A stretch of DNA of 64,000 nucleotides, from positions 19,151 through 83,150 of the forward strand of contig NZ_JACBZR010000003.1 in NCBI RefSeq assembly GCF_013408335.1. The letters run 5' to 3'. Under the pieces are notes generated by a model, which was given only the letters and a program-made list of their open reading frames with translations, had not been told where the DNA came from and searched no databases. The DNA comes from Nocardioides panzhihuensis. Lineage in GTDB: Bacteria; Actinomycetota; Actinomycetes; Propionibacteriales; Nocardioidaceae. How positions within the stretch are numbered: the first letter of the stretch is position 1; each line of letters starts with the position of its first letter. Both the position numbers and the translations under genes were made by a program. This document shows, one piece after another, positions 20,952 through 37,334 of the stretch.

Positions 20952-20963
20952 CGATTCCGGGGT

Positions 20964-23225
20964 TCAGACGGGTGCAAGGACACCTCCGATCGGGTTGTCG
21001 GGGTCGTCGGTGTCGGTGTGGCCGAGTGTGTCGGTCAGGTCGCGGCGGACCAGACCGCGTTTGTTGGTCTGCTTGCCGTCGATGACCTTCTTGACCTGGA
21101 CGGTGCGGATCCCGTGGGGTTTGACGGCAGCGGTGACCTGCTCCCCGGTCCACCCGCCATAGAGCGACCCGTTGTGCTCGGCGAGGCGGGCGGCGAGTTC
21201 GTCGCACCAGACCTTCCCGTTGCTCCACTCCGGGTCGTGCTCGGGCCAGACCGCGAGGAGGTGGTCCAGGATGGATCCGGTGTCGTCGTCGGGCAGGATC
21301 TCCCCGGCCGCCATTCCGGTCAGGCGGCCAGCGGCCAACCGCGCAGCACGGGCACGGGCACAGATGACCTCGGCGGCGGGCGCGTCCACGAAGGAGGACC
21401 GGACGATGACCGGGTCGTCACCCTCACCGACGAGGTAGGCGATACCGAGGTCTTTACGACCGAAGGTGGTCGCGCGGATGCCGGACTTGTACATCGAGGT
21501 CCCCAGGACCATGTCGTTCTCGACCTGTCCCATGACCTTGAGGCACAGCCGCAGGACCGCGTTCGCGGAGATGCCGGTCGGGATGGACTTGGCGTCGGGG
21601 CGCTGGGTGGCCAGCCAGACCATGATCCCGACCGCGGGTCCGCGCTTGACCAGGTCGGTGACGATCTCGGCGATCTCGGCCCCGTGGGTGGGGTGCTCGA
21701 ACATCTTCTGTGTCTCGTCAAAGGCCCAGAAGATCGGGTGCAGTTTGAGGGACTTCTCCGAGGCGAGAGCGTCGGTGACCTTGGACTCGGGGCACACCTC
21801 CCGGGGCAGGGTCTTGATGGCCTTGTAGCGGCGGCGCATCTCGATCGCCCCTTCCCGCAGGTCGCGGACGAGGTAGTCGATGTCTTCGGGGTCGTCCCCG
21901 GACCGGTTGGCGTGGGCGACGTCATCGAGCATCCCGAGGTCGGATCCGCCCTTGAGGTTGTAGGTGTGCAGCTCGACGCGCGGGTCCAGCGCGGCAGCGA
22001 GGCAGAGCAGGCGCAGGGTGAACGTCTTACCCATGCGCGGCAGGGCACCGATAAGACCGGTCGCGAACATCAGGGTCACGACCACGGGGCGGCCACGCTG
22101 GTCGACACCGATCGGGATCGGCTCGAACACGTTGACCTTCCCGGAGGTGGCCAGCGGCCAGGGCGCGGGCTTGGACTGGGCCAGGGACTTGTCGGCGACG
22201 TAGAGGACCAGGCGGCCGACGTGGACCTCGGGGTCGGTCTCGGGCCACACCTTCCCCAGGGAGCGACGCAGACCCGAAGCGAGACGGTCGCGCTGCTCGA
22301 TCACCTCCGAGGCAGTCACCCCGGGCGGGAGGTCGAGTTCGGCACGGAACCCAGCACCGTCACGCATGATCGGCGAGACGAACGCGATCGCCTTCGCACC
22401 CTCCTTAGCCATGGCCTGGTTCAGCCGCGCCAGACCCAGCGAACCGAGCGCGTTGAGGATCAGGTCCGAGGTAAGCCGCGGCTCCTTGGCCGTGTCCACG
22501 GCACGGCCGGTGATCGGCTTGTCCGGGTTGCGACCGAGCAGGCCGAGACCAGCCAGAGCGGCCAAGCCGAGACCGAGCTGGACCATCAGGGAGTCGATCC
22601 CGTACACGACGTAGGCGGCGATGCCGGCCACGGTCAGGAGCATCAGGACCGCAAGGAAGACGCGCGCTTTGATCTGGCGGCGGTGGTCCTCCCTCAGCCG
22701 GAGATAGGCCCCGGCGTCGAGGGTGTTGCCGCGTACGGTCATCCGGTTCTCTTTGTCCTCGGCGTCGAAGATCCAGCCCCAGCACATAGCCATGACACGG
22801 CCCAGGCCGAGCGGGGACCGGGCGGCCAACTTCGCGTAGTACGTCGGCAGACGCACCCCGTGATAGGTCGTGGTGTGGCCGTAGTGCTTCACCGCCCACG
22901 CAGCCGCCGACTTCGCCGACTCGCGGTCCTTGGCCCAGGCGGGCAGGATCTCCCGGCGCGGGGCAGCCTTGACCGTGCCGGACCGGTCGTCGCGAACGGC
23001 GAGGACCTGACCGTCAACGATCTCCGGAGTCGTCTCCGTGTCGTCCTCGGCGGCGGCGTCGGTGTTGTCGTGAGCGGCCTGAGCGCGCTCAGAGACGTTC
23101 TCGGCGATGGCCGGGGCAGCGTTGGTGCTCTCAGAGGCTTCAGGAGCGGCCTCACGGGCGCGGCGAGCCGCGTCGAGGTCGTAGACCCCGATCCCGTGGG
23201 CCTCTTGGTTCGGTGTGGTGGTCAT
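20964..23225 (-). CDS. FtsK/SpoIIIE-type DNA translocase, TraB-like, copy A
   Basis: A 753-residue hexameric-type dsDNA pump expected to drive intermycelial conjugation at the membrane. It has a disordered acidic N-terminus (1-75), two transmembrane helices (about 189-208 and 212-231), an ATPase core with Walker A at 394-402 (ALPRMGKTF; PRMGKT rather than GSGKS), Walker B at 498-504 (IFWAFDE) and the LATQRPD motif at 538-544. A C-terminal winged-helix-like region (about 665-735) probably reads DNA repeats. The start is supported by GGGAG 7 bases upstream. The gene begins 2 bases after a small gene and is followed by the GTAGC cluster. Confidence 0.9.
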   Translation of the reverse strand: MTTTPNQEAHGIGVYDLDAARRAREAAPEASESTNAAPAIAENVSERAQAAHDNTDAAAEDDTETTPEIVDGQVLAVRDDRSGTVKAAPRREILPAWAKDRESAKSAAAWAVKHYGHTTTYHGVRLPTYYAKLAARSPLGLGRVMAMCWGWIFDAEDKENRMTVRGNTLDAGAYLRLREDHRRQIKARVFLAVLMLLTVAGIAAYVVYGIDSLMVQLGLGLAALAGLGLLGRNPDKPITGRAVDTAKEPRLTSDLILNALGSLGLARLNQAMAKEGAKAIAFVSPIMRDGAGFRAELDLPPGVTASEVIEQRDRLASGLRRSLGKVWPETDPEVHVGRLVLYVADKSLAQSKPAPWPLATSGKVNVFEPIPIGVDQRGRPVVVTLMFATGLIGALPRMGKTFTLRLLCLAAALDPRVELHTYNLKGGSDLGMLDDVAHANRSGDDPEDIDYLVRDLREGAIEMRRRYKAIKTLPREVCPESKVTDALASEKSLKLHPIFWAFDETQKMFEHPTHGAEIAEIVTDLVKRGPAVGIMVWLATQRPDAKSIPTGISANAVLRLCLKVMGQVENDMVLGTSMYKSGIRATTFGRKDLGIAYLVGEGDDPVIVRSSFVDAPAAEVICARARAARLAAGRLTGMAAGEILPDDDTGSILDHLLAVWPEHDPEWSNGKVWCDELAARLAEHNGSLYGGWTGEQVTAAVKPHGIRTVQVKKVIDGKQTNKRGLVRRDLTDTLGHTDTDDPDNPIGGVLAPV

Positions 23226-23227
23226 GA

Positions 23228-23410
23228 TCAGGCTCCCTTCTCAGCAAGGCCAGCGGCCTTGGTCAGGTTTTTGGCCAGGGTCCGGGCGGCGGCGGGGGTG
23301 ATGGTGTGGACGCCGACCTGGACATACGGCGTCCTCGCGGACGGGTCGACGACGATGTCGGGGGTGTTGGGCCCCGACCTGATGACGGTGACCTTGGGGC
23401 GCTTGGGCAT
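23228..23410 (-). CDS. Small hypothetical protein (60 aa), copy A
   Basis: Not recognised. It begins MPKRPKVTVI and ends with an Ala/Lys-rich helix. It sits between the 71-residue gene (1-base TGATG overlap) and traB-like (2-base gap), so it is probably a coupled transfer-operon gene. Confidence 0.7.
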   Translation of the reverse strand: MPKRPKVTVIRSGPNTPDIVVDPSARTPYVQVGVHTITPAAARTLAKNLTKAAGLAEKGA

Positions 23411-23625
23411 CAGAACCAGCCCTTCGCCACTGGGTTGGTGCGCTTGACCGGCTTCTTGTTCCGGTACGGGTCGGACGCTTTGCCGACCTTGGCCTTCTTG
23501 CCCGCGTGCGGGTCCTTGGAGCCGGGCAGCTTCTTCGCGACCTTCGCGCGGTGGGTCCGGGCGACGTGGCGTGCGGTGTCCTTGACGGTGCCGTGGCCGA
23601 ACAGGCCGGTGTACTCGACAGCCAT
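23410..23625 (-). CDS. Small Lys-rich hypothetical protein (71 aa), copy A
   Basis: Not recognised. It is strongly basic (HRAKVAKKLPGSKDPHAGKK region), which suggests nucleic-acid contact. It begins 4 bases after the 69-residue gene and overlaps the next start by one base. Confidence 0.7.
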   Translation of the reverse strand: MAVEYTGLFGHGTVKDTARHVARTHRAKVAKKLPGSKDPHAGKKAKVGKASDPYRNKKPVKRTNPVAKGWF

Positions 23626-23629
23626 GGCG

Positions 23630-23839
23630 TCACTTCACCCACTTGGGGAACTTGTAGTTCTCGGCCATGTCGGCCTGCTTGAGGTAGACCTTGGCCAGGT
23701 CTTCGCAGGTCTTCGCGGCGGCAGGCTTGCCCTGCTCACGGAAGCGCGCGGCTCCCTTCTCGGCCATCTCAGCCTCGCGGCGGAACTTCGCAGCCTGTTT
23801 CTTGAAGTCGGCCCGGGCGGCTGCCTTGTTGATCTTCAT
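23630..23839 (-). CDS. Small charged helical protein (69 aa), copy A
   Basis: Not recognised. Almost the whole length is an alternating Lys/Arg/Glu/Ala helix (about 5-58), which could form a coiled coil. It lies 11 bases downstream of the 131-residue gene in the same operon. Confidence 0.7.
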   Translation of the reverse strand: MKINKAAARADFKKQAAKFRREAEMAEKGAARFREQGKPAAAKTCEDLAKVYLKQADMAENYKFPKWVK

Positions 23840-23850
23840 GACTAGTTCCT

Positions 23851-24246
23851 TTACCTCTCGGTGGTGGTGTTGTCAGGCCAGGGGTAGGAGGCGCCAGCTG
23901 CACGCGCGGTCGCGGCGATCACCAGCCGCAACGCGGTGCGGTCCAAGCCGGGCAGGACCTCGTTGAGGCAGACCGTGCGGTCGTAGGAGGCCAGGGACAG
24001 CGCGATGTCCAGCAGGCGACGCTCACCCCCGGAGAGGTAGCCACCGTCCGCGCGGTCGGCGTCGATCCAGGCAGCGCCGGGCTCGACCCGGACCCACGAC
24101 CCGTTCAGCAGGCGACCGCCCCAGGCACGGACCAGCAGCTCGACCGCAGCCTCGTCGGGAAGGGAGCCCTTCGCCCAGCGGCGCAGAGCGGCCGCGATCT
24201 CGGGCTTGGATGTCGGGATCTTCGCCAGGTTCTCAGGGGTGCTCAT
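23851..24246 (-). CDS. Hypothetical protein (131 aa), copy A
   Basis: Not recognised. The start at 24246 is chosen because ATGA overlaps the stop of the previous gene; an upstream in-frame ATG would add 8 residues inside that gene. A segment YLSGGERRLLDIALSL (about 71-86) resembles an ABC signature, but there is no Walker A motif, so it is not an ABC ATPase. Confidence 0.7.
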   Translation of the reverse strand: MSTPENLAKIPTSKPEIAAALRRWAKGSLPDEAAVELLVRAWGGRLLNGSWVRVEPGAAWIDADRADGGYLSGGERRLLDIALSLASYDRTVCLNEVLPGLDRTALRLVIAATARAAGASYPWPDNTTTER

Positions 24247-24605
24247 GCTGCGGCCTCCGAGACGGTCCACACGCGCTCGGTGGTCGACATCTTCACGAAC
24301 ACCGTGGTCTCGCCACTGCCAGCAGGGACCCGACCGGACCAGTCGTGACGAATCAGCAGCCCGATCGCGTCAGCGACGTAGGCCCGGGCATCCTCGCTCA
24401 GGTAGAGCGCATCGGCGATCAGCTGTGCCGCGACAAGCCCAGCGGGCTCGATCTCCAGCAGCACAGCGGGTCGACGCTCCGGGGCCCCATGAGCGAGACG
24501 AACGTCCGTCCCCGCGCTCACCTTGAAGCCGTGCACGTCCACGTTCGGGACACACTCCAGGATGTTTGCGGCCCAGGTCAGATCCCACGACTTCGCGGTA
24601 CTCAT
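24243..24605 (-). CDS. Hypothetical protein (120 aa), copy A
   Basis: Not recognised. It has no clear membrane segment. The start overlaps the end of the 70-residue membrane gene by 4 bases (ATGA) and its stop overlaps the 131-residue gene by 4 bases, marking one tightly coupled operon. Confidence 0.7.
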   Translation of the reverse strand: MSTAKSWDLTWAANILECVPNVDVHGFKVSAGTDVRLAHGAPERRPAVLLEIEPAGLVAAQLIADALYLSEDARAYVADAIGLLIRHDWSGRVPAGSGETTVFVKMSTTERVWTVSEAAA

Positions 24606-24814
24606 CGGGCACCCCCGGCGATGTTCGAGGCGGCCGAGAGAGCCGACGTCATCGCCGTCTCGATCCCGTCCAGGATCGGCGCGCCGATCGTGGTCGAGGC
24701 CAACGAGAGACCGAGGACCGCACCGAAGGCGAGGACACCCGGGTGGGTGCCGCCCCAGCGGACCATGAAGACAGCGACGATCAGGAAGATGATGAACAAA
24801 GGTGCGGTAACCAT
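24602..24814 (-). CDS. Small membrane protein (70 aa), copy A
   Basis: Two hydrophobic helices (about 4-18 and 25-45), followed by a small-residue tail (TSALSAASNIAGGAR). Small membrane proteins of this size are common in the spd regions of Streptomyces conjugative elements, so a spread or pore role is plausible but not shown. Confidence 0.7.
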   Translation of the reverse strand: MVTAPLFIIFLIVAVFMVRWGGTHPGVLAFGAVLGLSLASTTIGAPILDGIETAMTSALSAASNIAGGAR

Positions 24815-24829
24815 GACTAGATATGCCTT

Positions 24830-25117
24830 TCAGGCGGCCTCGGCCGGGACGGCCGGGCGAGGGTCGGTGATCGTGTAGACAGGCGCGGCCGAGATCGCCG
24901 CGTCGTGGTTGGCCTGCTGGACCAGCAGGTGCAGCAGTGCCGTCATCGCCCGGCGGTGGGCCCGCTTGGCGAGCGCGTCGGCCGGGTCAGCGAGCAGACG
25001 GCACTCGGCCTCGACCAGATCGACCTCAGCAGCGATCTGCGGCCACTCGGCTTCAATCGCGGCCAGGTCATCTCCGGTCGGCTCGTCTCGTGTGTTCGCG
25101 AAGTGGTCGGTGTGCAT
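24830..25117 (-). CDS. Small helical protein, DUF6284-like (95 aa), copy A
   Basis: The stretch DLAAIEAEWPQIAAEVDLVE resembles the actinobacterial DUF6284 family, which often occurs in integrative elements; this comes from memory of the family and is not a search result. No function is known. The gene lies 15 bases upstream of the small membrane protein gene. Confidence 0.65.
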   Translation of the reverse strand: MHTDHFANTRDEPTGDDLAAIEAEWPQIAAEVDLVEAECRLLADPADALAKRAHRRAMTALLHLLVQQANHDAAISAAPVYTITDPRPAVPAEAA

Positions 25118-25209
25118 CGGGGTGGTTCCTTCCGGGTGATGAGCGGGTGTTGCTTGGTGGCCGGGCCGGGGCTGCCTCTGGGGCTCACCCCGGGCCCGGG
25201 GATCGTGGG

Positions 25210-25473
25210 TCAGGCTCCGTACTTTCGGGAGCGGGCAACCTGACGACCGGCTTCGGTAAGGGCGAACAAGGCATCGCCGGACGGGAAGGACCGGACGCAG
25301 CGGATGAGGCCGCGCTCAGCGAGACCCGTGATGACGCGGTGGTGGTGCTTCCGGGTGGCGATCTGGCCACGGTTGACCGTGTCGGCGGTGTCCTTGCGGG
25401 TCTGCCAGGCGGCGTACATCGCGTCGAGGGTCTTGCCCTGGTTGGCGGTGATGGTGGCGGTGGTCGTGATCAT
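25210..25473 (-). CDS. Winged-helix-like DNA-binding protein (87 aa), first gene of the transfer operon, copy A
   Basis: The pattern ATRKHHHRVITGLAERGLIR followed by ALFALTEAGRQVA looks like a winged-helix recognition helix and wing. The start at 25473 is chosen because GGAAAGG lies 8 bases upstream; an in-frame ATG at 25479 would sit only 2 bases from that site. It is the first minus-strand gene after the divergent operator and so probably controls, or is controlled with, the transfer operon. Confidence 0.65.
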   Translation of the reverse strand: MITTTATITANQGKTLDAMYAAWQTRKDTADTVNRGQIATRKHHHRVITGLAERGLIRCVRSFPSGDALFALTEAGRQVARSRKYGA

Positions 25474-25517
25474 CTTCATGCCCTTTCCGTGGCCTGGCAG
25501 CCGGGTGGCTGCCTGTG

Positions 25518-25564
25518 TTCTACCTAACAACGGAATGGCTCACCATGTCAACTGTTAGGTAGAA
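25518..25564. promoter_or_regulatory. Divergent operator: perfect 12-bp inverted repeat, copy A
   Basis: TTCTACCTAACA (25518-25529) and TGTTAGGTAGAA (25553-25564) are exact reverse complements with a 23-bp spacer. They lie between the leftward transfer operon and the rightward GntR-kinase gene. AACTGTTAGGT (25550-25560) recurs at 25618-25628, 18 bases before the first possible GntR start. The local DNA is A/T-richer than its surroundings. The most likely ligand is the adjacent GntR-type regulator, as with KorSA of pSAM2. Confidence 0.8.
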
Positions 25565-25617
25565 GTTTCTGCGAGAAATTTCCGCTCGGGCTGGGGTCGT
25601 GCGACAGTTGTCAGCGA

Positions 25618-25628
25618 AACTGTTAGGT
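25618..25628. promoter_or_regulatory. Third operator half-site, copy A
   Basis: AACTGTTAGGT repeats the right half of the palindrome, immediately upstream of the GntR-kinase gene, and so suggests autoregulation. Confidence 0.6.
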
Positions 25629-25645
25629 CAGAACGAGCACACTGA

Positions 25646-26518
25646 ATGGCGAAGGTCGAACTAGGGAGACGCATGACAGACGGGCCAATCGACGCACTGG
25701 CGGGTGCGAAGCAGCAGCGGATCGCACGCGACATTCAGAACCAGATCGAGGCGGGGGTCCTACGTGACGGCGAGGTCATGCCGTCGACCCGAACGCTCGC
25801 CGAGCAGACGGGTGCGAGCGTCTGGACGGTCAATGAGGCGATGAAGGCACTCGCAGAGATGGGGCTGGTGGAGAACCAGTCGCGTTCGCGCCGGATCGTG
25901 CGATCTGCGCACCTCACGCCCAAGGTGAGCGAGGCGGCTCCCCGGGCTCTGCTGATCGGCGGCTACGCGGGTAGCGGCAAGACCGAGCTCGGGCGCATCC
26001 TCACCCGGCTGACGGGCTGGATGATCATCGACAAGGACACCATCACCCGCCCAGTTGTCGAGGTGGCTCTTGAGGCGTTGGGGGCTGAGTCGAGCGATCG
26101 GGAGTCGGAGACCTATTTGTCAAAGGTCCGGCCGCGTGAGTATGAGGCGCTGATGTCGACGGCGCACGAAAACACGGCATGCGGCGCTGGTGCCGTCGTC
26201 ACGGCTCCCTTCTTGCGTGAGTTCAAGGACGCGTCGTGGCTCGCGCGCCAGCAGGCGCAGTTTGCGGACGACGGATTACCCATGACCGTCGTGTGGGTCA
26301 CCTGTGACGCGGACACGATGCTGACCTATGTACGTCGTCGGGGTGCAGCTCGTGACGCGCACAAGCTGGCCACCTGGGACGCGTACATGGAGGCGATTGA
26401 CCTCACGTTCCGTCCAGTCGTGGACCATCACGTCATCGACAATTCGACATCTGCGGAGCCTCTTAAGGATCAGGCGGCGCGACTGATAGCAACGCTCGCC
26501 GAGGTGCCCGCGAAATGA
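25646..26518 (+). CDS. GntR-type HTH regulator fused to a P-loop kinase domain, copy A
   Basis: A 290-residue fusion. Residues about 20-88 form a GntR-type winged helix (MPSTRTLAEQTGASVWTVNE region). Residues 101-285 form a P-loop kinase-like domain with Walker A GYAGSGKT (106-113), IIDKDT (127-132) and a LID-like arginine cluster YVRRRGAARD. GntR proteins normally carry a ligand-binding C-terminus, so a kinase domain suggests sensing or modification of a small phosphorylatable ligand. The ATG at 25673 (MTDGPID) has a GGGAG just upstream and is an alternative start. The next gene overlaps by 4 bases. Function beyond this is unknown. Confidence 0.8.
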   Translation: MAKVELGRRMTDGPIDALAGAKQQRIARDIQNQIEAGVLRDGEVMPSTRTLAEQTGASVWTVNEAMKALAEMGLVENQSRSRRIVRSAHLTPKVSEAAPRALLIGGYAGSGKTELGRILTRLTGWMIIDKDTITRPVVEVALEALGAESSDRESETYLSKVRPREYEALMSTAHENTACGAGAVVTAPFLREFKDASWLARQQAQFADDGLPMTVVWVTCDADTMLTYVRRRGAARDAHKLATWDAYMEAIDLTFRPVVDHHVIDNSTSAEPLKDQAARLIATLAEVPAK

Positions 26519-27087
26519 CTCGCGGGGTGATCCTCTACGGTCCGCCGGCCGCTGGGAAGGACACCGTCGACGCTGCCCTTCGAGCGCTGTCGGATGACTA
26601 CGTCCACTTCGCGCGAATCAAGGTCGGCGAGGGTCGCCGAGAGGGCTACCGAATTACGACCAGCGCCGCGCTCCAAGAACTACGGGAGCGCGGCGGCGTC
26701 GTGTGGGAGAACAGCCGCTACGGTGCGACCTATGCGGTTGACAGGCCTGGCCTGATCGACGCGCTCGGCCATGGGGTGCCGGTCCTCCACCTAGGACAGG
26801 TCGAGGCGGTCGACGCGGTAGCCACGGCGGTCAGTGGAGCGCGTTGGGTTGTCGTTTCTCTCTGGTGTCCGGAGGATGTCGCAGTCGATCGGTTGCGGCA
26901 GCGGGGGAGTGCGGACGTTGCAGAGCGTCTGGAGGCATGGCGGGCGACGCCCGAACTGGGAGAGGCAGACCTCAGGTTCGATACATCCATGGTCGAGCCG
27001 CGTGATGCAGCGCGACGTATTGACGCACATGTTCGGAAGGCCTGCACGCTCGCCGATTCATTCCCCCCCGATTCCCCCCGAGGGTGA
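26515..27087 (+). CDS. Guanylate-kinase-like P-loop protein (190 aa), copy A
   Basis: Walker A is GPPAAGKDT (9-17). The region WENSRYGATYAVDRPGLIDA and the following PVLHLGQ strand resemble the substrate-binding part of guanylate kinase-like proteins. The start ATGA overlaps the GntR-kinase stop, so the pair is co-translated. The C-terminus (SFPPDSPRG) is encoded by a C-run repeat that is also found at the end of int, on the other side of the att core. A nucleotide or nucleoside kinase activity is inferred from the fold only. Confidence 0.75.
   Translation: MTRGVILYGPPAAGKDTVDAALRALSDDYVHFARIKVGEGRREGYRITTSAALQELRERGGVVWENSRYGATYAVDRPGLIDALGHGVPVLHLGQVEAVDAVATAVSGARWVVVSLWCPEDVAVDRLRQRGSADVAERLEAWRATPELGEADLRFDTSMVEPRDAARRIDAHVRKACTLADSFPPDSPRG
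27060..27082. repeat. Left 23-bp att-flanking direct repeat, copy A/B junction
   Basis: Two tandem attcccccc-type blocks ending in gag. It matches 27278-27300 with one mismatch (position 10). The two lie about 70 and 80 bp from the att core, as arm-type integrase sites would. It also encodes the last residues of the kinase gene. Equivalent pairs flank the cores at 40637 and 55742. Confidence 0.65.
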
Positions 27088-27152
27088 AACGACATGCAAT
27101 ACATGCAACGCCTGCCAGGTGTTCTCAACCCATAGTTCTGGGTCTCCAAACC

Positions 27153-27197
27153 TTCGCAATGAGAAGGCCAGGGGTTCGAATCCCCTCAGCTCCACCA
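27153..27197 (+). other. att core: 3' half of tRNA-Ala(CGC), A/B junction
   Basis: The 45 bases read as a tRNA from the anticodon loop TTCGCAA (anticodon CGC) through anticodon stem TGAGA, variable AGGCC, T-arm AGGGG-TTCGAAT-CCCCT, acceptor strand CAGCTCC, discriminator A and CCA. U70 in the acceptor strand fits the G3-U70 identity pair of tRNA-Ala. The 5' half is absent: upstream bases cannot pair with the anticodon stem. This is the usual form of an attP or tandem-junction core for a tRNA-targeting integrase. Confidence 0.85.
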
Positions 27198-27200
27198 AAG

Positions 27201-27249
27201 AAGAACCCCGCCTGACCTGCGGAAACGCAGAGAGTCAGGCGGGGTTCTT
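27201..27249. terminator. Strong bidirectional hairpin terminator after att core, A/B junction
   Basis: A perfect 16-bp inverted repeat (27201-27216 and 27234-27249) encloses a smaller CTGCG/CGCAG hairpin with a GAAA loop. It would end int transcription from the right and tRNA transcription from the left after integration. Confidence 0.85.
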
Positions 27250-27266
27250 GCTTGTTTGTGCTGCCG

Positions 27267-28385
27267 TTATTCGGCGGATTCCCCCCGGATTCCCCCCGAG
27301 CCGTTCAGGCGGGCCAATCCGGCCTCATCTGCGACGGTCCCGAGGTGGTGCAGATAGATGTTTGTCGTCGCGATTGAGGCATGCCCCATCCATGCCTGAA
27401 CCGTGGTCGCGGGCACGCCCTTCGCCAGCCACAGGCAGGCGGCCGTGTGGCGCAGATCGTGAATTCTGCGGCCGTGCGAGATCAGCTCCCAGTCGACGGC
27501 CCGCTTGACGGCGCTCGCGTGCAACCGGTGACCAGTGGCGGTGACGAACACCAGATCGCGGGTGGTGCGTCCGGCGATCAGGTCTTTGACGGTCGGGAGG
27601 ATGCGGTCCGCGAGCGGCACGAATCGGGACTTCCCGGACTTGGTTGTCTTGGCTTCGCCTCCCTCGGGTGCTGCGCGTCGAACGTAGATGCCCGGCATGG
27701 GGTCGAATACGACGTCGCTCACTCGAACCTCACGCAGCTCCGACCAGCGGAGCCCGGTCCATCCCGCGACCAGCAGGATGTCCGAGAGTCGGGCGAGGTC
27801 GCGTGTTCGCTCTGCTGCTCGAATCAGACTGACGGAGTCCCTCGATGCGAGGTGGGCGGCATCGAGGACGAAGGTCTCTAGCTCGGTCTCGCTGAAGGGG
27901 TGCATCTCGGTGGCTACCTCACTTGCTTTGGGTACTCGGGTTGGTGTGACGGGGTTGTGCTGGACCATGCGTTCTCGGACTGCCCATGCGAAGAACGAAG
28001 ACAGTGACGCCCGGTAGCGCTTGACCGACTTCTCGGCGAGGCCTCGGCGGCGGAGCGCGACCAGCGCGCGGGAGACCTCGCGTTCGGTCACACTGCCGAT
28101 CTGCAGGGCTGACAGCGCGGGCGGTGTTAGGCGCGGGAGCGCGGCATCTGCGGTGTACGTCTTGGGGGCGACGGTCGCCTTGCGCTCATCGAGCCACATC
28201 GGCAAGGCCTTGCGGACGGTGATCTGTCCGGCGCGGCGGTCGAACCCACCCGCGAGCGCGGCACGCTCGCGGGTGAGCCAGTCGACAGCCTCGCGGCGGG
28301 TGTCGAACATCTTTGTGCCGATGTCGACCCGACCTTGCTTCAGTCGCGCTTGCCAGCGACCGTTCGTCATCTTCCGGACGTTCAC
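27267..28385 (-). CDS. int: Tyrosine recombinase integrase, copy B
   Basis: A 372-residue site-specific recombinase that would integrate the element at tRNA-Ala(CGC). It has an N-terminal arm-binding/SAM-like region (1-165) and a catalytic domain with R213 (GLRWSE), K252 region, H309-x2-R312 (HDLRH), H335 (MGHAS) and the nucleophile Y344 (NIYLHH). The GTG start at 28385 overlaps the xis TGA by 4 bases, with GGAGG upstream. The stop lies 18 bases from the terminator, and the last codons (GGIRGESAE) include the att-flanking repeat. Confidence 0.95.
   Translation of the reverse strand: MNVRKMTNGRWQARLKQGRVDIGTKMFDTRREAVDWLTRERAALAGGFDRRAGQITVRKALPMWLDERKATVAPKTYTADAALPRLTPPALSALQIGSVTEREVSRALVALRRRGLAEKSVKRYRASLSSFFAWAVRERMVQHNPVTPTRVPKASEVATEMHPFSETELETFVLDAAHLASRDSVSLIRAAERTRDLARLSDILLVAGWTGLRWSELREVRVSDVVFDPMPGIYVRRAAPEGGEAKTTKSGKSRFVPLADRILPTVKDLIAGRTTRDLVFVTATGHRLHASAVKRAVDWELISHGRRIHDLRHTAACLWLAKGVPATTVQAWMGHASIATTNIYLHHLGTVADEAGLARLNGSGGIRGESAE
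27278..27300. repeat. Right 23-bp att-flanking direct repeat, A/B junction
   Basis: Partner of 27060-27082 (22 of 23 bases equal), inside the 3' end of int. Confidence 0.65.
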
Positions 28386-28621
28386 GCGGCCACCTCCTCA
28401 AGCCAGGCGAGCACGTCGCTACGGCGATAGCGGGGCGAGTCAGGAGAGAGCCAGTAGACGCGAGGTCCCTTGCCGGTTGCCCGCCAGCGGCAGAGCGTCG
28501 ACGGCGTCACCTTGAGCGCTTCGGCGACCTCGCGCGATGTCCAGAGGATCGGCAGCACATCGTTCGGGTCGTTGGCTGATCCCGCGACGGCCAGGTGATC
28601 GCGGCGGCTGATCTTGCTCAT
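28382..28621 (-). CDS. xis: Excisionase, HTH_17/MerR-like (79 aa), copy B
   Basis: A 79-residue protein with the typical Xis helix-turn-helix LWTSREVAEALKVTPSTLCRW (about 26-46) and the wing VYWLSPDSPRYRRSDVLAWLEE. GGAGG lies 7 bases before the ATG. It is followed by int with a GTGA overlap, the rep-xis-int order known from pSAM2-type elements. All three amplification breakpoints used in this window fall in or near xis and int on one side. Confidence 0.92.
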   Translation of the reverse strand: MSKISRRDHLAVAGSANDPNDVLPILWTSREVAEALKVTPSTLCRWRATGKGPRVYWLSPDSPRYRRSDVLAWLEEVAA

Positions 28622-28665
28622 CAGTGGGCCTCCTTGGCGCTCGTGTTGTGGGTTGAGGTGGGGTG

Positions 28666-28873
28666 AGCCGTACCAGCCGTACCAGCCGTACCAACGGCGT
28701 GTTTCGGCTGGTCAGGTGCGGATTTTGGGTGGTACGGCTTTGGTACGGCTGGTACGGCTTGGGATTTCTGGTACGGCTTTGGTACGGCTCGATTTCCCAA
28801 GCCGTACCACTCGGAATCGTGGCCTGACCTCGGAAAACAGGGTCTTGGTACGGCTGGTACGGCTGGTACGGCT
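28666..28873. repeat. Iteron array 10 (copy B, unit 1)
   Basis: Twelve 9-mers arranged as in 741-948, here downstream of an intact xis start. Confidence 0.85.
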
Positions 28874-28913
28874 TGGGGCCCTCGACGTGTCGCCGGTCGG
28901 GTGGGGTGGGTGG

Positions 28914-30143
28914 TCATCGACGGGCCTCCGGGTCGCAGGTCGGGTGTGTGCGGGTGCCGTCGTCGATCGCGAGAGGTTGGCGGCAGATGAGGCAGGTTGG
29001 GGCGGGTGCGCAGTAGCGGGCCCAGGCGTCGGCGAACGCGGCACGCTGGTAGCCCTTGGCTTGTCCGGTGTCGAACCGGATCGTGTCGGATCGGATGTCG
29101 AAGTCGCGCAGCAGGAAACCGAGTTTCATCGCGGTCAGACCTTGCAGCGGGTTGGAGTAGGTCGCCCACGGTGCCTCGGGGTCGTCCTTGAGCCGGTCGA
29201 GCAGGACCGAGGTGGGCAGCGCTTCGGCGTCACCGAACGCGGTACGGCAGTCGGTCAGCAGTCGGGTTTGCAGGGTGGTCTGTGCGTTGGCGTCGCGGGT
29301 CTCGGTGAGGGTGACGCAGGCTTCGCGGCCGATCTCGGGCCAGTCGCCTCCGGCAAGGTCGGCGATCGCGAGCAGAGGTTCCCAGGTGTCGGCGGCGCGG
29401 TCCTCGACCGGCATGTCCGGGGTGGCGGTGCCGAGGTGGTCATGATGCGCGACCACCCACTGGTTCAGCCGCTTTCGGAGGTTGTCCAGCGCTGGACCAT
29501 CACGGCGAGTCCGGTACGGCGCGACGGACTCACCAGGCGCGCGACGACGCATCCGGATAACGACGGCGCGGTCCTCGATGGTGTCCGGCATCGCACCGAT
29601 CCCAGCGAGGGCGGCCATGGCGAATGTCTGGATGCGCTCGACGCTCGAGTTAGCGGCGTTGTAGCGCAGCGCGGGCCGGTTGCGCTGGTGTCCGGCGTTG
29701 AGCAGGCCGCGTAGGTCTTCGTTCTCGCCTGCCTTGGGTCCGAAGATGGTGTCGGCCTCGTCGAGCAGGATCGTGGGCGGGTTCTTCGTCTTCATCCCGA
29801 TGGAGCGGTAAACGGCGCTGGGTGAGGCGTTGACGGTGAGCAGCGGGTCATGGCAGGTCGCCTCGGCCAGGTCGAGCAGCCGCGACTTGCCGCATCGTTT
29901 CTCCGGGGCACGGATCACCAGGCGGGGCGCGTGGGCCCACACGGGTACGGCGTGGGTGGCGGCGATCCAGAGAACGACCCCGGTCATGGCGTGAGCATCG
30001 GGGAGGATGACGTACTTCCCGATCGCATCGCGAACCTCGTTGAGCAGCAGCTCTCCCGCGTTGGGCGCGAAGTCGGCCGGGGTGAGCCTTTCCTCACCCG
30101 GGCTGACCGTGACGTTCTCGGCGGTGGTGGTGTCGTCGGCCAT
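28914..30143 (-). CDS. DUF3631-type ATPase (copy B, unit 1)
   Basis: Complete and identical to 989-2218. An open frame continues upstream to 30317 through the frameshifted xis remnant, but the GGAGG-preceded ATG at 30143 is the sensible start. Confidence 0.85.
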   Translation of the reverse strand: MADDTTTAENVTVSPGEERLTPADFAPNAGELLLNEVRDAIGKYVILPDAHAMTGVVLWIAATHAVPVWAHAPRLVIRAPEKRCGKSRLLDLAEATCHDPLLTVNASPSAVYRSIGMKTKNPPTILLDEADTIFGPKAGENEDLRGLLNAGHQRNRPALRYNAANSSVERIQTFAMAALAGIGAMPDTIEDRAVVIRMRRRAPGESVAPYRTRRDGPALDNLRKRLNQWVVAHHDHLGTATPDMPVEDRAADTWEPLLAIADLAGGDWPEIGREACVTLTETRDANAQTTLQTRLLTDCRTAFGDAEALPTSVLLDRLKDDPEAPWATYSNPLQGLTAMKLGFLLRDFDIRSDTIRFDTGQAKGYQRAAFADAWARYCAPAPTCLICRQPLAIDDGTRTHPTCDPEARR

Positions 30144-30171
30144 GGGTTGTTCCTCCGGGTTGGGTTCCGAG

Positions 30172-30244
30172 CGGCAGCACATCGTTCGGGTCGTTGGCTG
30201 ATCCCGCGACGGCCAGGTGATCGCGGCGGCTGATCTTGCCTCAT
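30172..30244 (-). pseudogene. Xis remnant with 1-base insertion (copy B)
   Basis: The first 24 xis codons joined to the DUF3631 leader. An extra C near 30240 shifts the frame right after the ATG (MRQDQPPR instead of MSKISRR). The copy C remnants lack this insertion. Confidence 0.9.
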
Positions 30245-30288
30245 CAGTGGGCCTCCTTGGCGCTCGTGTTGTGGGTTGAGGTGGGGTG

Positions 30289-30496
30289 AGCCGTACCAGC
30301 CGTACCAGCCGTACCAACGGCGTGTTTCGGCTGGTCAGGTGCGGATTTTGGGTGGTACGGCTTTGGTACGGCTGGTACGGCTTGGGATTTCTGGTACGGC
30401 TTTGGTACGGCTCGATTTCCCAAGCCGTACCACTCGGAATCGTGGCCTGACCTCGGAAAACAGGGTCTTGGTACGGCTGGTACGGCTGGTACGGCT
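30289..30496. repeat. Iteron array 11 (copy B, unit 2)
   Basis: Twelve 9-mers arranged as in 741-948. Confidence 0.85.
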
Positions 30497-30536
30497 TGGG
30501 GCCCTCGACGTGTCGCCGGTCGGGTGGGGTGGGTGG

Positions 30537-31766
30537 TCATCGACGGGCCTCCGGGTCGCAGGTCGGGTGTGTGCGGGTGCCGTCGTCGATCGCGAGAGGT
30601 TGGCGGCAGATGAGGCAGGTTGGGGCGGGTGCGCAGTAGCGGGCCCAGGCGTCGGCGAACGCGGCACGCTGGTAGCCCTTGGCTTGTCCGGTGTCGAACC
30701 GGATCGTGTCGGATCGGATGTCGAAGTCGCGCAGCAGGAAACCGAGTTTCATCGCGGTCAGACCTTGCAGCGGGTTGGAGTAGGTCGCCCACGGTGCCTC
30801 GGGGTCGTCCTTGAGCCGGTCGAGCAGGACCGAGGTGGGCAGCGCTTCGGCGTCACCGAACGCGGTACGGCAGTCGGTCAGCAGTCGGGTTTGCAGGGTG
30901 GTCTGTGCGTTGGCGTCGCGGGTCTCGGTGAGGGTGACGCAGGCTTCGCGGCCGATCTCGGGCCAGTCGCCTCCGGCAAGGTCGGCGATCGCGAGCAGAG
31001 GTTCCCAGGTGTCGGCGGCGCGGTCCTCGACCGGCATGTCCGGGGTGGCGGTGCCGAGGTGGTCATGATGCGCGACCACCCACTGGTTCAGCCGCTTTCG
31101 GAGGTTGTCCAGCGCTGGACCATCACGGCGAGTCCGGTACGGCGCGACGGACTCACCAGGCGCGCGACGACGCATCCGGATAACGACGGCGCGGTCCTCG
31201 ATGGTGTCCGGCATCGCACCGATCCCAGCGAGGGCGGCCATGGCGAATGTCTGGATGCGCTCGACGCTCGAGTTAGCGGCGTTGTAGCGCAGCGCGGGCC
31301 GGTTGCGCTGGTGTCCGGCGTTGAGCAGGCCGCGTAGGTCTTCGTTCTCGCCTGCCTTGGGTCCGAAGATGGTGTCGGCCTCGTCGAGCAGGATCGTGGG
31401 CGGGTTCTTCGTCTTCATCCCGATGGAGCGGTAAACGGCGCTGGGTGAGGCGTTGACGGTGAGCAGCGGGTCATGGCAGGTCGCCTCGGCCAGGTCGAGC
31501 AGCCGCGACTTGCCGCATCGTTTCTCCGGGGCACGGATCACCAGGCGGGGCGCGTGGGCCCACACGGGTACGGCGTGGGTGGCGGCGATCCAGAGAACGA
31601 CCCCGGTCATGGCGTGAGCATCGGGGAGGATGACGTACTTCCCGATCGCATCGCGAACCTCGTTGAGCAGCAGCTCTCCCGCGTTGGGCGCGAAGTCGGC
31701 CGGGGTGAGCCTTTCCTCACCCGGGCTGACCGTGACGTTCTCGGCGGTGGTGGTGTCGTCGGCCAT
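30537..31766 (-). CDS. DUF3631-type ATPase (copy B, unit 2)
   Basis: Complete, in its native position behind the intact Prim-Pol gene of copy B. Confidence 0.86.
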   Translation of the reverse strand: MADDTTTAENVTVSPGEERLTPADFAPNAGELLLNEVRDAIGKYVILPDAHAMTGVVLWIAATHAVPVWAHAPRLVIRAPEKRCGKSRLLDLAEATCHDPLLTVNASPSAVYRSIGMKTKNPPTILLDEADTIFGPKAGENEDLRGLLNAGHQRNRPALRYNAANSSVERIQTFAMAALAGIGAMPDTIEDRAVVIRMRRRAPGESVAPYRTRRDGPALDNLRKRLNQWVVAHHDHLGTATPDMPVEDRAADTWEPLLAIADLAGGDWPEIGREACVTLTETRDANAQTTLQTRLLTDCRTAFGDAEALPTSVLLDRLKDDPEAPWATYSNPLQGLTAMKLGFLLRDFDIRSDTIRFDTGQAKGYQRAAFADAWARYCAPAPTCLICRQPLAIDDGTRTHPTCDPEARR

Positions 31767-31834
31767 GGGTTGTTCCTCCGGGTTGGGTTCCGAGTTGGGC
31801 GTTGTCTGGTCGTCTCGTTGGTCGAAGGCGTGGG

Positions 31835-32863
31835 TCATGCGGCGCTCCGGGTCGCGGCGCGGCGGAAGCCGGACAGGATCGTGTTCTCGGCCTCGTAGGC
31901 GGTGTAGGCGCGAGCGGCGATGTGCCCAGCGGCAGCGACCAACAGCCGGTCGAGCGCGGAGTGTTCGGTGATCAGGTCGCGTGCAACCAACTTTCCGACT
32001 GTGGCGGCCGCGACGAAGAGCGCGGCGTTTCGGCCGCCCTTGGTCGCGTCCAGCAGACCCGCGACGCCGTTTGCGTGGTCGCCGTTGATCGCGATGTCGA
32101 AGACGCGGTTTACGTACGCGTCCGGGTCGCGCAGTGGCTCGCCGGACCCGATCGGCTGTAGTGGTCGGGCCTGTGTCCTAGAACCGTCCTGAGAGCGGTT
32201 CTGTGACGTGCGGGTGGCGGGTCGGCGGTCGTGGGTGAGGAGGTCGAGCAGGAACATCGGGAGCGGTGCGGCCGGGCGGTCGTCGATGATGTCGTACGCG
32301 CTAGCTCCGATGCTGGTTGGCGGTGCGGCGACGTATCCGCCGTGGGCGCGGGTGTCGATCAACCAGCCGATCTTTCCGGCTGTGTTGCCGTAGGCCACAT
32401 CGGCCGGCGCAGCGTAGTAGAGGTGGGTTCCTCCGGAGACGGTGCGCACGGTGTAGGTCGGGGTGATGGTGCCGCCGTGGACTCCGGCGAGGTGGTCGAG
32501 CACGTCGGCGCCAGTGGTGATCTCGAACGACTTCCACGGTTCGGGGATCTCGGTTCCGGGCTTGTGGGTGTCGAGGTCGACCACGACCAGGCGGGAGGGC
32601 CCACAGGCGATCCCGACTCCGTAGGCGGGGTTGCTGGACCATGCTTTGGTGATCTTGTCGGCGCGGATGGTGGCGCGTTGCTCCCACCCGGCGTGAGTGG
32701 TGCGGCACCCCGGGGCGGTGCCATCGCAGTCGGTGGCACGGTGGTTCGGCGTAGCGGGCCGCTTGGAGCCGGGCAGCAGGGGGAAGACTCGCCAGCCACG
32801 GGCGGCGTAGTCCAGAGCGGTCGTGAGGCTGTCGGTCAGGGTGTCAGGCTGCTGCTGCATCAT
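31835..32863 (-). CDS. Prim-Pol, copy B
   Basis: Identical product to 18351-19379, 13,484 bp further on. The junction-proximal hairpin is at 32180-32202, with no rearrangement here. Confidence 0.9.
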   Translation of the reverse strand: MMQQQPDTLTDSLTTALDYAARGWRVFPLLPGSKRPATPNHRATDCDGTAPGCRTTHAGWEQRATIRADKITKAWSSNPAYGVGIACGPSRLVVVDLDTHKPGTEIPEPWKSFEITTGADVLDHLAGVHGGTITPTYTVRTVSGGTHLYYAAPADVAYGNTAGKIGWLIDTRAHGGYVAAPPTSIGASAYDIIDDRPAAPLPMFLLDLLTHDRRPATRTSQNRSQDGSRTQARPLQPIGSGEPLRDPDAYVNRVFDIAINGDHANGVAGLLDATKGGRNAALFVAAATVGKLVARDLITEHSALDRLLVAAAGHIAARAYTAYEAENTILSGFRRAATRSAA

Positions 32864-33137
32864 CGATCTGTCCTTCCTCGGATTCGTGCTGGTCGTGGTG
32901 CTGGTCTGGTTCGTGGCGGTCGGGTCGGGCGAGGGCGACCATGAAGCCCTTCAAGGTCGGTCGCGGGTGCTCGGCGGCGTACTCGGCGAGTTCGGTCGGA
33001 TAGCCCAGGGATTCGGCCTCAGCGGCGAGGAACCAGGCGTGCGAGGCGTTGTGAAACTCGCTGGTGATCAGGTCGCGCCACCAGTGGCGGCGACGCTGCA
33101 CATAGCGGCGGCGCGGACGGCGGGGAGGGCGGCTCAT
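32844..33137 (-). CDS. Small basic hypothetical protein (97 aa), copy B
   Basis: Identical to 19360-19653, with the same overlaps. Confidence 0.75.
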   Translation of the reverse strand: MSRPPRRPRRRYVQRRRHWWRDLITSEFHNASHAWFLAAEAESLGYPTELAEYAAEHPRPTLKGFMVALARPDRHEPDQHHDQHESEEGQIDDAAAA

Positions 33138-34168
33138 CAGGCACCCGCAGCCCTGCTATTGGTCCAGCGGTAGACGGTCCGGTCGGAGACGTCGAGCAGC
33201 CCGGCGACCTCGGGCACGGGCAGCCCGTACGCGCGCAGCTCGACCGCAGCGCACGCGGCGTGGACCTGGTCGCCGTCCTCGTCGTTCAGCGGCTCATCGC
33301 AGATGGCGCACTGGTCGATGTGGTCCTCGTTGTGGTGCGCGTCGTCGTGGGTGTCAGGGATGACAGTCAGGGTCGGCGCGACACTGACAGCCGGGGTGAC
33401 AGCGGAGCCGGGAGCAGTGATCTCGTGAGGGTGGTTGTCAGGGTCGGTGTCACCCGCGGTGTCAGCCCTGGTGTCAGGGGTTGTGTCAGGGGTGAGGGTC
33501 GCCTGACGGCCGATCAGCTTGCCGTAGGCGATCGCCCCGGCCGCGTGCTTCTCGGCGGACCTGGTCAGCCGGGACGCGGCGCGGTTCTCGGCGCGCTCGA
33601 CGGTCACCTTGATCTCGGCCAGAGCACGGGTACGTGCGGCCAGCCGCGCCGACTCGCCGTAGCCGGTGATGGTCTCCATGTGGGCGGCGTGACGAGCCTC
33701 GATCACGGCCAGGGCTCGCTGGTCGCGGATCTCTGCCGTGCGGGACCGGATGATCGCGGCAGTCTCCGGGGAGACGGTGACCTGGTCGCGGATCCCGTCA
33801 GCGACCAGCAGCAGCGCAGCCAGCGCCGGAATCGCCGACCAAGGGCCCATGTGCCCGACAGCAGCGAGCAGGACCGTCGAGGCGGCCACAGCAACCGCCG
33901 TGGCGGCACCGAAGCCGTAGGCGGCGGCTCGCTGTCCGGACTTGTAGGCACCGATCGTGGTGTGACCCAGCGCAGCCCACACCACATCAGCGGCGAGAGC
34001 GACGGCTACACCGACAGCGGGCGCGGCAGAACCTGCGGCGGGGATCATCGCGGCGACCTGCGGCGCGATGGTCACAGCGACCTGGACGAAGCCAACGAAG
34101 GTCATTCCGTAGCCGACACCAGCGAGGCCAGAGGGCCGTTTCTTGGTGGTGGTGGTGTGCGCGTTCAT
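33137..34168 (-). CDS. Membrane/zinc-knuckle/HTH protein, copy B
   Basis: Identical to 19653-20684. Confidence 0.75.
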   Translation of the reverse strand: MNAHTTTTKKRPSGLAGVGYGMTFVGFVQVAVTIAPQVAAMIPAAGSAAPAVGVAVALAADVVWAALGHTTIGAYKSGQRAAAYGFGAATAVAVAASTVLLAAVGHMGPWSAIPALAALLLVADGIRDQVTVSPETAAIIRSRTAEIRDQRALAVIEARHAAHMETITGYGESARLAARTRALAEIKVTVERAENRAASRLTRSAEKHAAGAIAYGKLIGRQATLTPDTTPDTRADTAGDTDPDNHPHEITAPGSAVTPAVSVAPTLTVIPDTHDDAHHNEDHIDQCAICDEPLNDEDGDQVHAACAAVELRAYGLPVPEVAGLLDVSDRTVYRWTNSRAAGA

Positions 34169-34254
34169 GGCGGTGAGTTCTCCTGTTTCGGACTGTTTCG
34201 GGCATGGGTGAGGTAGGGACTTGGGCCAGCGAGACGTTTCTGGAGGGTTTCTCC

Positions 34255-34435
34255 GCTACCGGGTGGAGGTGTTGGGCGAGGTGGGTAGCGGTAGCGGGCG
34301 GGAGGAGGGGTCGGATCGGCCCGGATCCAGGGTTCGAACGGGTGCGCGAAGTGGAGGGCTACTCCGCTACGTCGCTGGTCAGGTAGCAGTTTCGGTAGTA
34401 GCAGGGGTGCTACGGGTAGCAGCCGCTACGGCTAC
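34255..34435. repeat. GTAGC pentamer cluster, copy B
   Basis: Same eleven pentamers as 20771-20951. Confidence 0.6.
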
Positions 34436-34447
34436 CGATTCCGGGGT

Positions 34448-36709
34448 TCAGACGGGTGCAAGGACACCTCCGATCGGGTTGTCGGGGTCGTCGGTGTCGG
34501 TGTGGCCGAGTGTGTCGGTCAGGTCGCGGCGGACCAGACCGCGTTTGTTGGTCTGCTTGCCGTCGATGACCTTCTTGACCTGGACGGTGCGGATCCCGTG
34601 GGGTTTGACGGCAGCGGTGACCTGCTCCCCGGTCCACCCGCCATAGAGCGACCCGTTGTGCTCGGCGAGGCGGGCGGCGAGTTCGTCGCACCAGACCTTC
34701 CCGTTGCTCCACTCCGGGTCGTGCTCGGGCCAGACCGCGAGGAGGTGGTCCAGGATGGATCCGGTGTCGTCGTCGGGCAGGATCTCCCCGGCCGCCATTC
34801 CGGTCAGGCGGCCAGCGGCCAACCGCGCAGCACGGGCACGGGCACAGATGACCTCGGCGGCGGGCGCGTCCACGAAGGAGGACCGGACGATGACCGGGTC
34901 GTCACCCTCACCGACGAGGTAGGCGATACCGAGGTCTTTACGACCGAAGGTGGTCGCGCGGATGCCGGACTTGTACATCGAGGTCCCCAGGACCATGTCG
35001 TTCTCGACCTGTCCCATGACCTTGAGGCACAGCCGCAGGACCGCGTTCGCGGAGATGCCGGTCGGGATGGACTTGGCGTCGGGGCGCTGGGTGGCCAGCC
35101 AGACCATGATCCCGACCGCGGGTCCGCGCTTGACCAGGTCGGTGACGATCTCGGCGATCTCGGCCCCGTGGGTGGGGTGCTCGAACATCTTCTGTGTCTC
35201 GTCAAAGGCCCAGAAGATCGGGTGCAGTTTGAGGGACTTCTCCGAGGCGAGAGCGTCGGTGACCTTGGACTCGGGGCACACCTCCCGGGGCAGGGTCTTG
35301 ATGGCCTTGTAGCGGCGGCGCATCTCGATCGCCCCTTCCCGCAGGTCGCGGACGAGGTAGTCGATGTCTTCGGGGTCGTCCCCGGACCGGTTGGCGTGGG
35401 CGACGTCATCGAGCATCCCGAGGTCGGATCCGCCCTTGAGGTTGTAGGTGTGCAGCTCGACGCGCGGGTCCAGCGCGGCAGCGAGGCAGAGCAGGCGCAG
35501 GGTGAACGTCTTACCCATGCGCGGCAGGGCACCGATAAGACCGGTCGCGAACATCAGGGTCACGACCACGGGGCGGCCACGCTGGTCGACACCGATCGGG
35601 ATCGGCTCGAACACGTTGACCTTCCCGGAGGTGGCCAGCGGCCAGGGCGCGGGCTTGGACTGGGCCAGGGACTTGTCGGCGACGTAGAGGACCAGGCGGC
35701 CGACGTGGACCTCGGGGTCGGTCTCGGGCCACACCTTCCCCAGGGAGCGACGCAGACCCGAAGCGAGACGGTCGCGCTGCTCGATCACCTCCGAGGCAGT
35801 CACCCCGGGCGGGAGGTCGAGTTCGGCACGGAACCCAGCACCGTCACGCATGATCGGCGAGACGAACGCGATCGCCTTCGCACCCTCCTTAGCCATGGCC
35901 TGGTTCAGCCGCGCCAGACCCAGCGAACCGAGCGCGTTGAGGATCAGGTCCGAGGTAAGCCGCGGCTCCTTGGCCGTGTCCACGGCACGGCCGGTGATCG
36001 GCTTGTCCGGGTTGCGACCGAGCAGGCCGAGACCAGCCAGAGCGGCCAAGCCGAGACCGAGCTGGACCATCAGGGAGTCGATCCCGTACACGACGTAGGC
36101 GGCGATGCCGGCCACGGTCAGGAGCATCAGGACCGCAAGGAAGACGCGCGCTTTGATCTGGCGGCGGTGGTCCTCCCTCAGCCGGAGATAGGCCCCGGCG
36201 TCGAGGGTGTTGCCGCGTACGGTCATCCGGTTCTCTTTGTCCTCGGCGTCGAAGATCCAGCCCCAGCACATAGCCATGACACGGCCCAGGCCGAGCGGGG
36301 ACCGGGCGGCCAACTTCGCGTAGTACGTCGGCAGACGCACCCCGTGATAGGTCGTGGTGTGGCCGTAGTGCTTCACCGCCCACGCAGCCGCCGACTTCGC
36401 CGACTCGCGGTCCTTGGCCCAGGCGGGCAGGATCTCCCGGCGCGGGGCAGCCTTGACCGTGCCGGACCGGTCGTCGCGAACGGCGAGGACCTGACCGTCA
36501 ACGATCTCCGGAGTCGTCTCCGTGTCGTCCTCGGCGGCGGCGTCGGTGTTGTCGTGAGCGGCCTGAGCGCGCTCAGAGACGTTCTCGGCGATGGCCGGGG
36601 CAGCGTTGGTGCTCTCAGAGGCTTCAGGAGCGGCCTCACGGGCGCGGCGAGCCGCGTCGAGGTCGTAGACCCCGATCCCGTGGGCCTCTTGGTTCGGTGT
36701 GGTGGTCAT
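34448..36709 (-). CDS. FtsK/TraB-like translocase, copy B
   Basis: Identical to 20964-23225. Confidence 0.9.
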   Translation of the reverse strand: MTTTPNQEAHGIGVYDLDAARRAREAAPEASESTNAAPAIAENVSERAQAAHDNTDAAAEDDTETTPEIVDGQVLAVRDDRSGTVKAAPRREILPAWAKDRESAKSAAAWAVKHYGHTTTYHGVRLPTYYAKLAARSPLGLGRVMAMCWGWIFDAEDKENRMTVRGNTLDAGAYLRLREDHRRQIKARVFLAVLMLLTVAGIAAYVVYGIDSLMVQLGLGLAALAGLGLLGRNPDKPITGRAVDTAKEPRLTSDLILNALGSLGLARLNQAMAKEGAKAIAFVSPIMRDGAGFRAELDLPPGVTASEVIEQRDRLASGLRRSLGKVWPETDPEVHVGRLVLYVADKSLAQSKPAPWPLATSGKVNVFEPIPIGVDQRGRPVVVTLMFATGLIGALPRMGKTFTLRLLCLAAALDPRVELHTYNLKGGSDLGMLDDVAHANRSGDDPEDIDYLVRDLREGAIEMRRRYKAIKTLPREVCPESKVTDALASEKSLKLHPIFWAFDETQKMFEHPTHGAEIAEIVTDLVKRGPAVGIMVWLATQRPDAKSIPTGISANAVLRLCLKVMGQVENDMVLGTSMYKSGIRATTFGRKDLGIAYLVGEGDDPVIVRSSFVDAPAAEVICARARAARLAAGRLTGMAAGEILPDDDTGSILDHLLAVWPEHDPEWSNGKVWCDELAARLAEHNGSLYGGWTGEQVTAAVKPHGIRTVQVKKVIDGKQTNKRGLVRRDLTDTLGHTDTDDPDNPIGGVLAPV

Positions 36710-36711
36710 GA

Positions 36712-37109: not shown

Positions 37110-37113
37110 GGCG

Positions 37114-37323: not shown

Positions 37324-37334
37324 GACTAGTTCCT

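Follow-up and report, generated by a model that had tools for sequence, protein, structure and literature searches.

The closest described systems are the actinomycete integrative and conjugative elements (AICEs). In a survey of these elements the DUF3631 family serves as the profile of the initiator RepAM (pMEA300), and repAM lies beside the Prim-Pol gene in 12 of 40 Prim-Pol AICEs, according to passages of that survey (PMC3218068). Our window, the whole analysed stretch of 64,000 nucleotides from Nocardioides panzhihuensis (GCF_013408335.1), covers bases 19151–83150 of contig C3 (NZ_JACBZR010000003.1), an 83,150-bp contig that is made up wholly of the sequence of one 11,861-bp integrative element. 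Like the AICEs in the passages of the survey, this element has an integrase (Int), an excisionase-like protein (Xis), RepAM, Prim-Pol, an FtsK-type Tra candidate and an attachment (att) site at a tRNA gene. Its array of iterons and, on C3, the tandem blocks of short units that include this array have no counterpart in that account: the word "iteron" is absent from the text of the survey, its passages describe no internal origin arrays, and the tandem cases given there are different elements side by side.

Amplification of origin-bearing DNA is described for other systems. Passages on IncQ satellite plasmids, a system with plasmid-coded helicase, primase and iteron-binding protein, describe subgenomic molecules that keep the origin and lose the trans functions (PMC6925257), which the C3 units may resemble; these units differ in that they stand in tandem beside full elements and have joins with 0–2 nt of homology. 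In yeast petite mitochondrial DNA, origin-bearing fragments likewise form tandem concatemers, and the petite breakpoints agree with a model of random fragments that must span an origin (passages of PMC9054137), an approach mirrored by our arc analysis. That system is a eukaryotic organelle in which the fragments replace the full genome, whereas here the full element stays, with blocks that lead into units of the element, four of them complete on C3. Re-replication-induced amplification in yeast (PMC3536649) is also centred on a re-firing origin; the title of that work points to single-strand annealing together with non-allelic homologous recombination, whereas the first joins on C3 have no useful homology.

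Amplification blocks on the element contig

The assembly consists of three contigs (6.31 Mb). On the chromosome, C1, we found one clean copy of the element (5,839,391–5,851,297), identical over its full length, which is bounded on both sides by a 46-bp att core and lies at a gene for tRNA-Ala (cgc). C3 holds only att-joined copies of the element with no chromosomal flank, which is suggestive of autonomous replication after excision. Measured between iteron reference points, four complete 11,861-bp units of the same sequence lie on C3, three of them inside the window.

27153–27198, + strand: att core of 46 bp at the tRNA-Ala 3' end (anticodon cgc), at which the ends of the element are joined; it also flanks the chromosomal copy
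30240–42100, no strand: complete element unit of 11,861 bp, the same as units 16756–28616 and 45345–57205 and the chromosomal copy

From one iteron reference point to the next, the distances within the window are 2008 (eight times), 11861, 1623, 11861, 1622 (twice), 11861 and 2174 (twice). Over the whole of C3 they are 1622 (twice, with a partial unit first), 11861, 2008 (ten times), 11861, 1623, 11861, 1622 (twice), 11861 and 2174 (twice), after which 2,447 element bases lead to the contig end. There are three amplification types, of 1,622, 2,008 and 2,174 bp, whose six breakpoints are all different, and no fourth type is present on the whole of C3; the 1,623-bp unit is the 1,622-bp unit plus one base. 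The short units form five blocks, the first of which is truncated where the contig begins; no block mixes types, and every block continues into element sequence.

1–18723, no strand: block of the 2,008-bp type, segment from -41/-44 to +1966/1968, with nine of the ten block joins inside the window
28550–31794, no strand: block of the 1,623-bp type, two copies, join at 30171/30172 without homology
42034–46899, no strand: block of the 1,622-bp type, three copies, joins at 43655/43656 and 45277/45278 without homology
56197–62718, no strand: block of the 2,174-bp type, three copies, joins at 58370/58371 and 60544/60545 without homology

To the left and right of the iteron reference point the units extend 67 and 1,555 bp (1,622-bp type), 41–44 and 1,966–1,968 bp (2,008-bp type) and 1,009 and 1,165 bp (2,174-bp type), and the 2,008-bp joins in the window accordingly lie about 41–44 nt left of the reference points from 692 to 16756. 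The joins of the 1,622- and 2,174-bp types show no homology and those of the 2,008-bp type one or two bases, with two variants distinguished by a single base there; a periodicity of this two-state base (units 5 and 10 of 10) involves too few cases and was not used. Joins with so little homology argue against homologous unequal crossing-over as the first step, and for that step the first-pass annotation of this DNA, which had set random unequal crossing-over aside, was right. Because the host chromosome encodes Ku, end joining is plausible. No common breakpoint motif was apparent by eye, and the longest hairpin stems at the six breakpoints, 3–4 bp, are not above those at random positions.

28576–29781, no strand: stretch common to the three types (41 + 1165 = 1,206 bp)

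The unit extents around the iteron reference point reproduce this overlap exactly as the first-pass annotation had given it. The stretch contains xis codons 1–15, the 12 clustered iterons and the 3' two thirds of repAM (starting near codon 146 of 433), which is the same part of the gene as the DUF3631 codons 122–409 of that annotation, counted from Met25. The stretch had been proposed as a core that drives its own over-replication. It stands that the duplications centre on a probable replication origin, with the iterons included in all five blocks on C3, but a functional 1.2-kb core is unsupported. When three arcs were placed at random on an 11,861-bp circle two million times, with the array taken as 208 bp, the chance that all three contain the array was 0.0030, the chance that they share any stretch 0.079 and the chance that they share at least 1,206 bp anywhere 0.011. 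Among placements with the array in all arcs the median overlap was 1,051 bp and 36% reached 1,206 bp; thus, an overlap of this length is ordinary once the array is required, and the core length adds no information. Synonymous conservation along repAM (11 of 14 loci used) is uneven, with high values at codons 381–420 beside the iterons (0.74 and 0.85), at codons 161–180 (0.70) and, from only 13 comparisons, at codons 21–40 (0.85), and no conserved block matches the core. On these two grounds we rejected the idea that the 1,206-bp core is a functional module. What is supported as the common factor is the 206-bp iteron array, rather than a 1.2-kb module.

The short units differ in what they hold of RepAM. 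The 2,008-bp unit has the complete gene, and the 1,622-bp unit has it from codon 16, preceded by a few foreign codons; in the alignment of relatives all invariant RepAM positions lie after codon 50. In the 2,174-bp unit RepAM is missing as far as about codon 145, and with it the GKS at 109–111 that we take to be the Walker A motif; extra copies of this unit would therefore need RepAM from elsewhere. At its joins the first 259 of the 372 int codons run out of frame into the truncated RepAM. No short unit reaches the start of prim-pol. All three types keep the 12 clustered iterons and with them the putative origin. The last copy of a block leads into intact repAM and prim-pol and the first is preceded by intact int and xis, in agreement with the list of open reading frames, so that in this tandem-duplication layout the element loses nothing.

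If the 17 complete short units were mixed at random over the five blocks (1623 counted as 1622), type-pure blocks would result in 3 of 408,408 arrangements, which indicates that the types expanded within lineages and were not captured one by one from a mixed pool. Such expansion fits either a single minicircle that grew by rolling-circle replication and was then inserted once, or a single duplicated element in which unequal recombination took place. Different circles chained by the assembler via the identical 11.9-kb part would have the same appearance as expansion within a lineage.

The iteron array and RepAM residue 378

28667–28872, no strand: iteron array of 206 bp, 12 copies of GGTACGGC in the order <<< >>>>> < >>>, a large imperfect dyad and the proposed RepAM-bound origin
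30537–31838, - strand: RepAM (DUF3631), 433 aa, probable initiator (PF12307, E 1.1e-69); its Thr378 pairs with GGTACGGC iterons

The array lies downstream of repAM and reads as three inverted copies, five direct, one inverted and three direct. As single-stranded DNA, positions 28655–28885 fold far better than shuffled sequences (z = -10.35). We compared the best 80 of 528 confirmed loci (L049–L128), 79 of which have enough sequence downstream of repAM, and took a locus as iteron-bearing when at least four iterons lie downstream of the gene. Iterons beside repAM were found in 55 of the 79 relatives, in the GGTACGGC form in 25 and in the GGGACGGC form in 30. Across these 55 relatives and the window, RepAM residue 378 is Thr in 25 of the 26 sequences with the GGTACGGC form and Asn in 29 of the 30 with the GGGACGGC form, and so tracks the iteron form in 54 of 56; the exceptions are L056, which has mixed iterons, and L118. 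Residues 377 and 383 also predict the iteron form (95% and 86%, respectively) while other columns reach at most 75%, and with two-state scoring the best column outside 377–384 agrees in 39 of 56 sequences.

A tree built without residues 372–388 implies at least 10 changes of iteron form, eight of them forced by well-supported branches. In eight independent pairs residue 378 agrees with the iteron form in 6.7 on average, opposes it in none and shows no difference in 1.3 (sign test, median p 0.016). Among 24 held-out loci, for which the motif was one base shorter and the rule was fixed after the repeats had been seen, 13 were assignable and 11 unclear; 12 of the 13 follow the residue-378 rule, the exception being L108. 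RepAM thus very probably reads the iterons with the C-terminal part around residue 378, and the co-variation marks the array as a putative RepAM site. To judge from the family, this reading would start replication. Two loci, L082 (Met, with GCCGTAAC repeats) and L123 (with CCCGTCAC repeats), may represent further recognition classes.

Three further GGTACGGC copies lie inside repAM, at 29241, 29513 and 31567 (element offsets 624, 896 and 1327), two of them in the common stretch. These intragenic iterons are not conserved in relatives and were not used as evidence. In a count over 40 of the 55 iteron-bearing loci, the repAM genes of the T class hold 9 iterons in 20 loci (0.40 per kb versus 0.11 elsewhere) and those of the G class 2 in 20 loci (0.09 per kb versus 0.17 elsewhere).

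Routes to the blocks

We read the short units as iteron-bearing, end-joined origin fragments of the excised element that were amplified through the origin, as in petite mitochondrial DNA and IncQ satellites, and give this a probability of about 0.5. The element would excise and multiply outside the chromosome, where RepAM would bind the iterons via its C-terminal region and start replication with Prim-Pol. Segments with random broken ends would be joined end to end by host Ku, giving small circles or, on replicating copies, tandem duplications. Only iteron-bearing segments would gain copies, because RepAM and Prim-Pol would work in trans, and the required cis part would be the iteron array and not the whole 1.2 kb. 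The segments would expand by rolling-circle replication or unequal recombination, and would sit in full elements or recombine back into them via the shared origin. More tentatively, and with the odds somewhat against it, the AICE may spawn origin-only parasites: end-joined minicircles of 1.6–2.2 kb that depend on the parent RepAM and Prim-Pol, grow into arrays and re-enter via the origin, as a bacterial counterpart of petites.

Several points weigh against the amplification of origin fragments. No free short circle is seen on C3, where every short unit stands in a block adjoining a full element, and two of the three types keep a complete or near-complete RepAM and need not be "defective". Three join types are few, the order and number of the units depend on the assembly of identical repeats, and the chain of different blocks may reflect chaining of different molecules by the assembler. 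Residue 378 is the best of all columns and was chosen after looking. By eye, no comparable origin array was found in other genomes among the matches listed in four match tables, which cover 195, 396, 391 and 394 genomes with overlap and have matches in 25, 17, 21 and 40 of them, own genome included, at most four or eight matches being scored per genome. Among 149 loci scanned, only one (L123) has another repeat longer than 1 kb. The lack of a second genome with such arrays may reflect rarity, or assemblers may collapse them. The literature searches, which covered few subscription journals, brought up no account of either origin arrays or satellites for AICEs.

Three candidates for a further origin array were rejected: the 3,204-bp duplication of L123 (Pseudonocardia sp. 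ICBG1293) is non-tandem, in G1032 two different RepAM genes lie 12.3 kb from each other, and in G119 a single gene was matched in pieces. The L123 contig itself (G590:C68, tig00001007; 66.9 kb) has a 10.3-kb terminal overlap and is likely a circle of about 56.6 kb. Its second copy of the repAM region is 99.9% identical and lies 11,284 bp away, and the contig has more direct and inverted duplications.

Of the other explanations the one that survives best, though we think it unlikely, is that repeated firing of the origin leads to fork collapse and non-homologous joining, which would leave tandem duplications on the element itself with no separate satellite at any time. The growth that goes with it, in which molecules with more origins win replication turns and blocks enlarge by unequal recombination, is to our mind equally doubtful. 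Type-pure blocks that run on into intact elements, with no free circle seen, are what such events in cis would leave, and two of the six breakpoints are no more than about 120 bp from the array; however, the breakpoints have no unusual hairpins and one is about 1 kb away, inside int. Nothing in the sequence distinguishes this course from the satellite route.

We consider it improbable that the blocks are an effect of assembly or library preparation, with joins that are rare or arose in vitro, reads of different molecules chained via the identical 11.9-kb element, and a concatemer whose counts are unreal. C3 is linear, ends inside units and consists of near-perfect repeats, false chaining would give mixed blocks joined by identical elements, and the 1,623-bp variant and the two-state base at the 2,008-bp join are either uncorrected or real. 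However, random library chimeras would neither show one identical join 10, 5 and 2 times over in complete units nor include the iterons every time, and C2, the 93-kb contig from this assembly, has neither a match to the element nor comparable arrays. Three overlapping duplications unrelated to replication, which might be tolerated anywhere since a tandem duplication spares the element genes, are very improbable given the values of 0.003 for the iterons and 0.011 for an overlap of such size anywhere.

Element genes and the place of the element among AICEs

27267–28385, - strand: tyrosine integrase (int), 372 aa (PF00589, E 2.1e-23)
28382–28621, - strand: Xis-like helix-turn-helix protein, 79 aa (PF12728, E 1.2e-7)
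31835–32863, - strand: Prim-Pol, 342 aa (PF09250, E 1.7e-42)
34448–36709, - strand: FtsK/SpoIIIE-like TraB candidate, 753 aa (PF01580, 20.8 bits, under the 24-bit cut-off), placed similarly to traB in L025

Of ten element proteins compared with Pfam, eight had matches, namely the tyrosine integrase, an excisionase-like helix-turn-helix protein, DUF3631, Prim-Pol, a helix-turn-helix protein, a sub-threshold FtsK/SpoIIIE protein, a GntR-AAA protein and a CPT-like protein. The element has a tyrosine integrase and is inserted at the 3' end of its tRNA gene target, and the RepAM (DUF3631) and Prim-Pol genes are adjacent. The best explanation of this gene content is that the element is an AICE of the RepAM and Prim-Pol class. 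A gene order similar to that of the element is found in two records of circular Streptomyces plasmids (14.3 and 13.5 kb), and in a search of named genomes the closest relatives of its RepAM were found in Nocardioides albus and N. luteus. Among solved structures the sole match to RepAM had an E value of 0.91 and was counted as none.

The GntR-AAA protein (25646–26518, + strand), which has a sub-threshold zeta-toxin match, is followed by the CPT-like protein (26515–27087, + strand); this pair adjoining the att core is possibly cargo or a regulator pair. A 139-aa protein (37335–37754, - strand) has a weak match to mad3 in PADLOC (E 1.9e-5, 22.4 bits) that is probably fortuitous.

On the reading that origin fragments of the excised element were amplified, these natural duplications show where replication probably starts in a class of actinobacterial mobile elements that is widespread. 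They and the co-variation of residue and base jointly make DUF3631, a domain of unknown function in Pfam, a testable candidate for an iteron-binding initiator. If the satellites are true, the selfish amplification of origins described for petites and IncQ plasmids would extend to integrative and conjugative elements.
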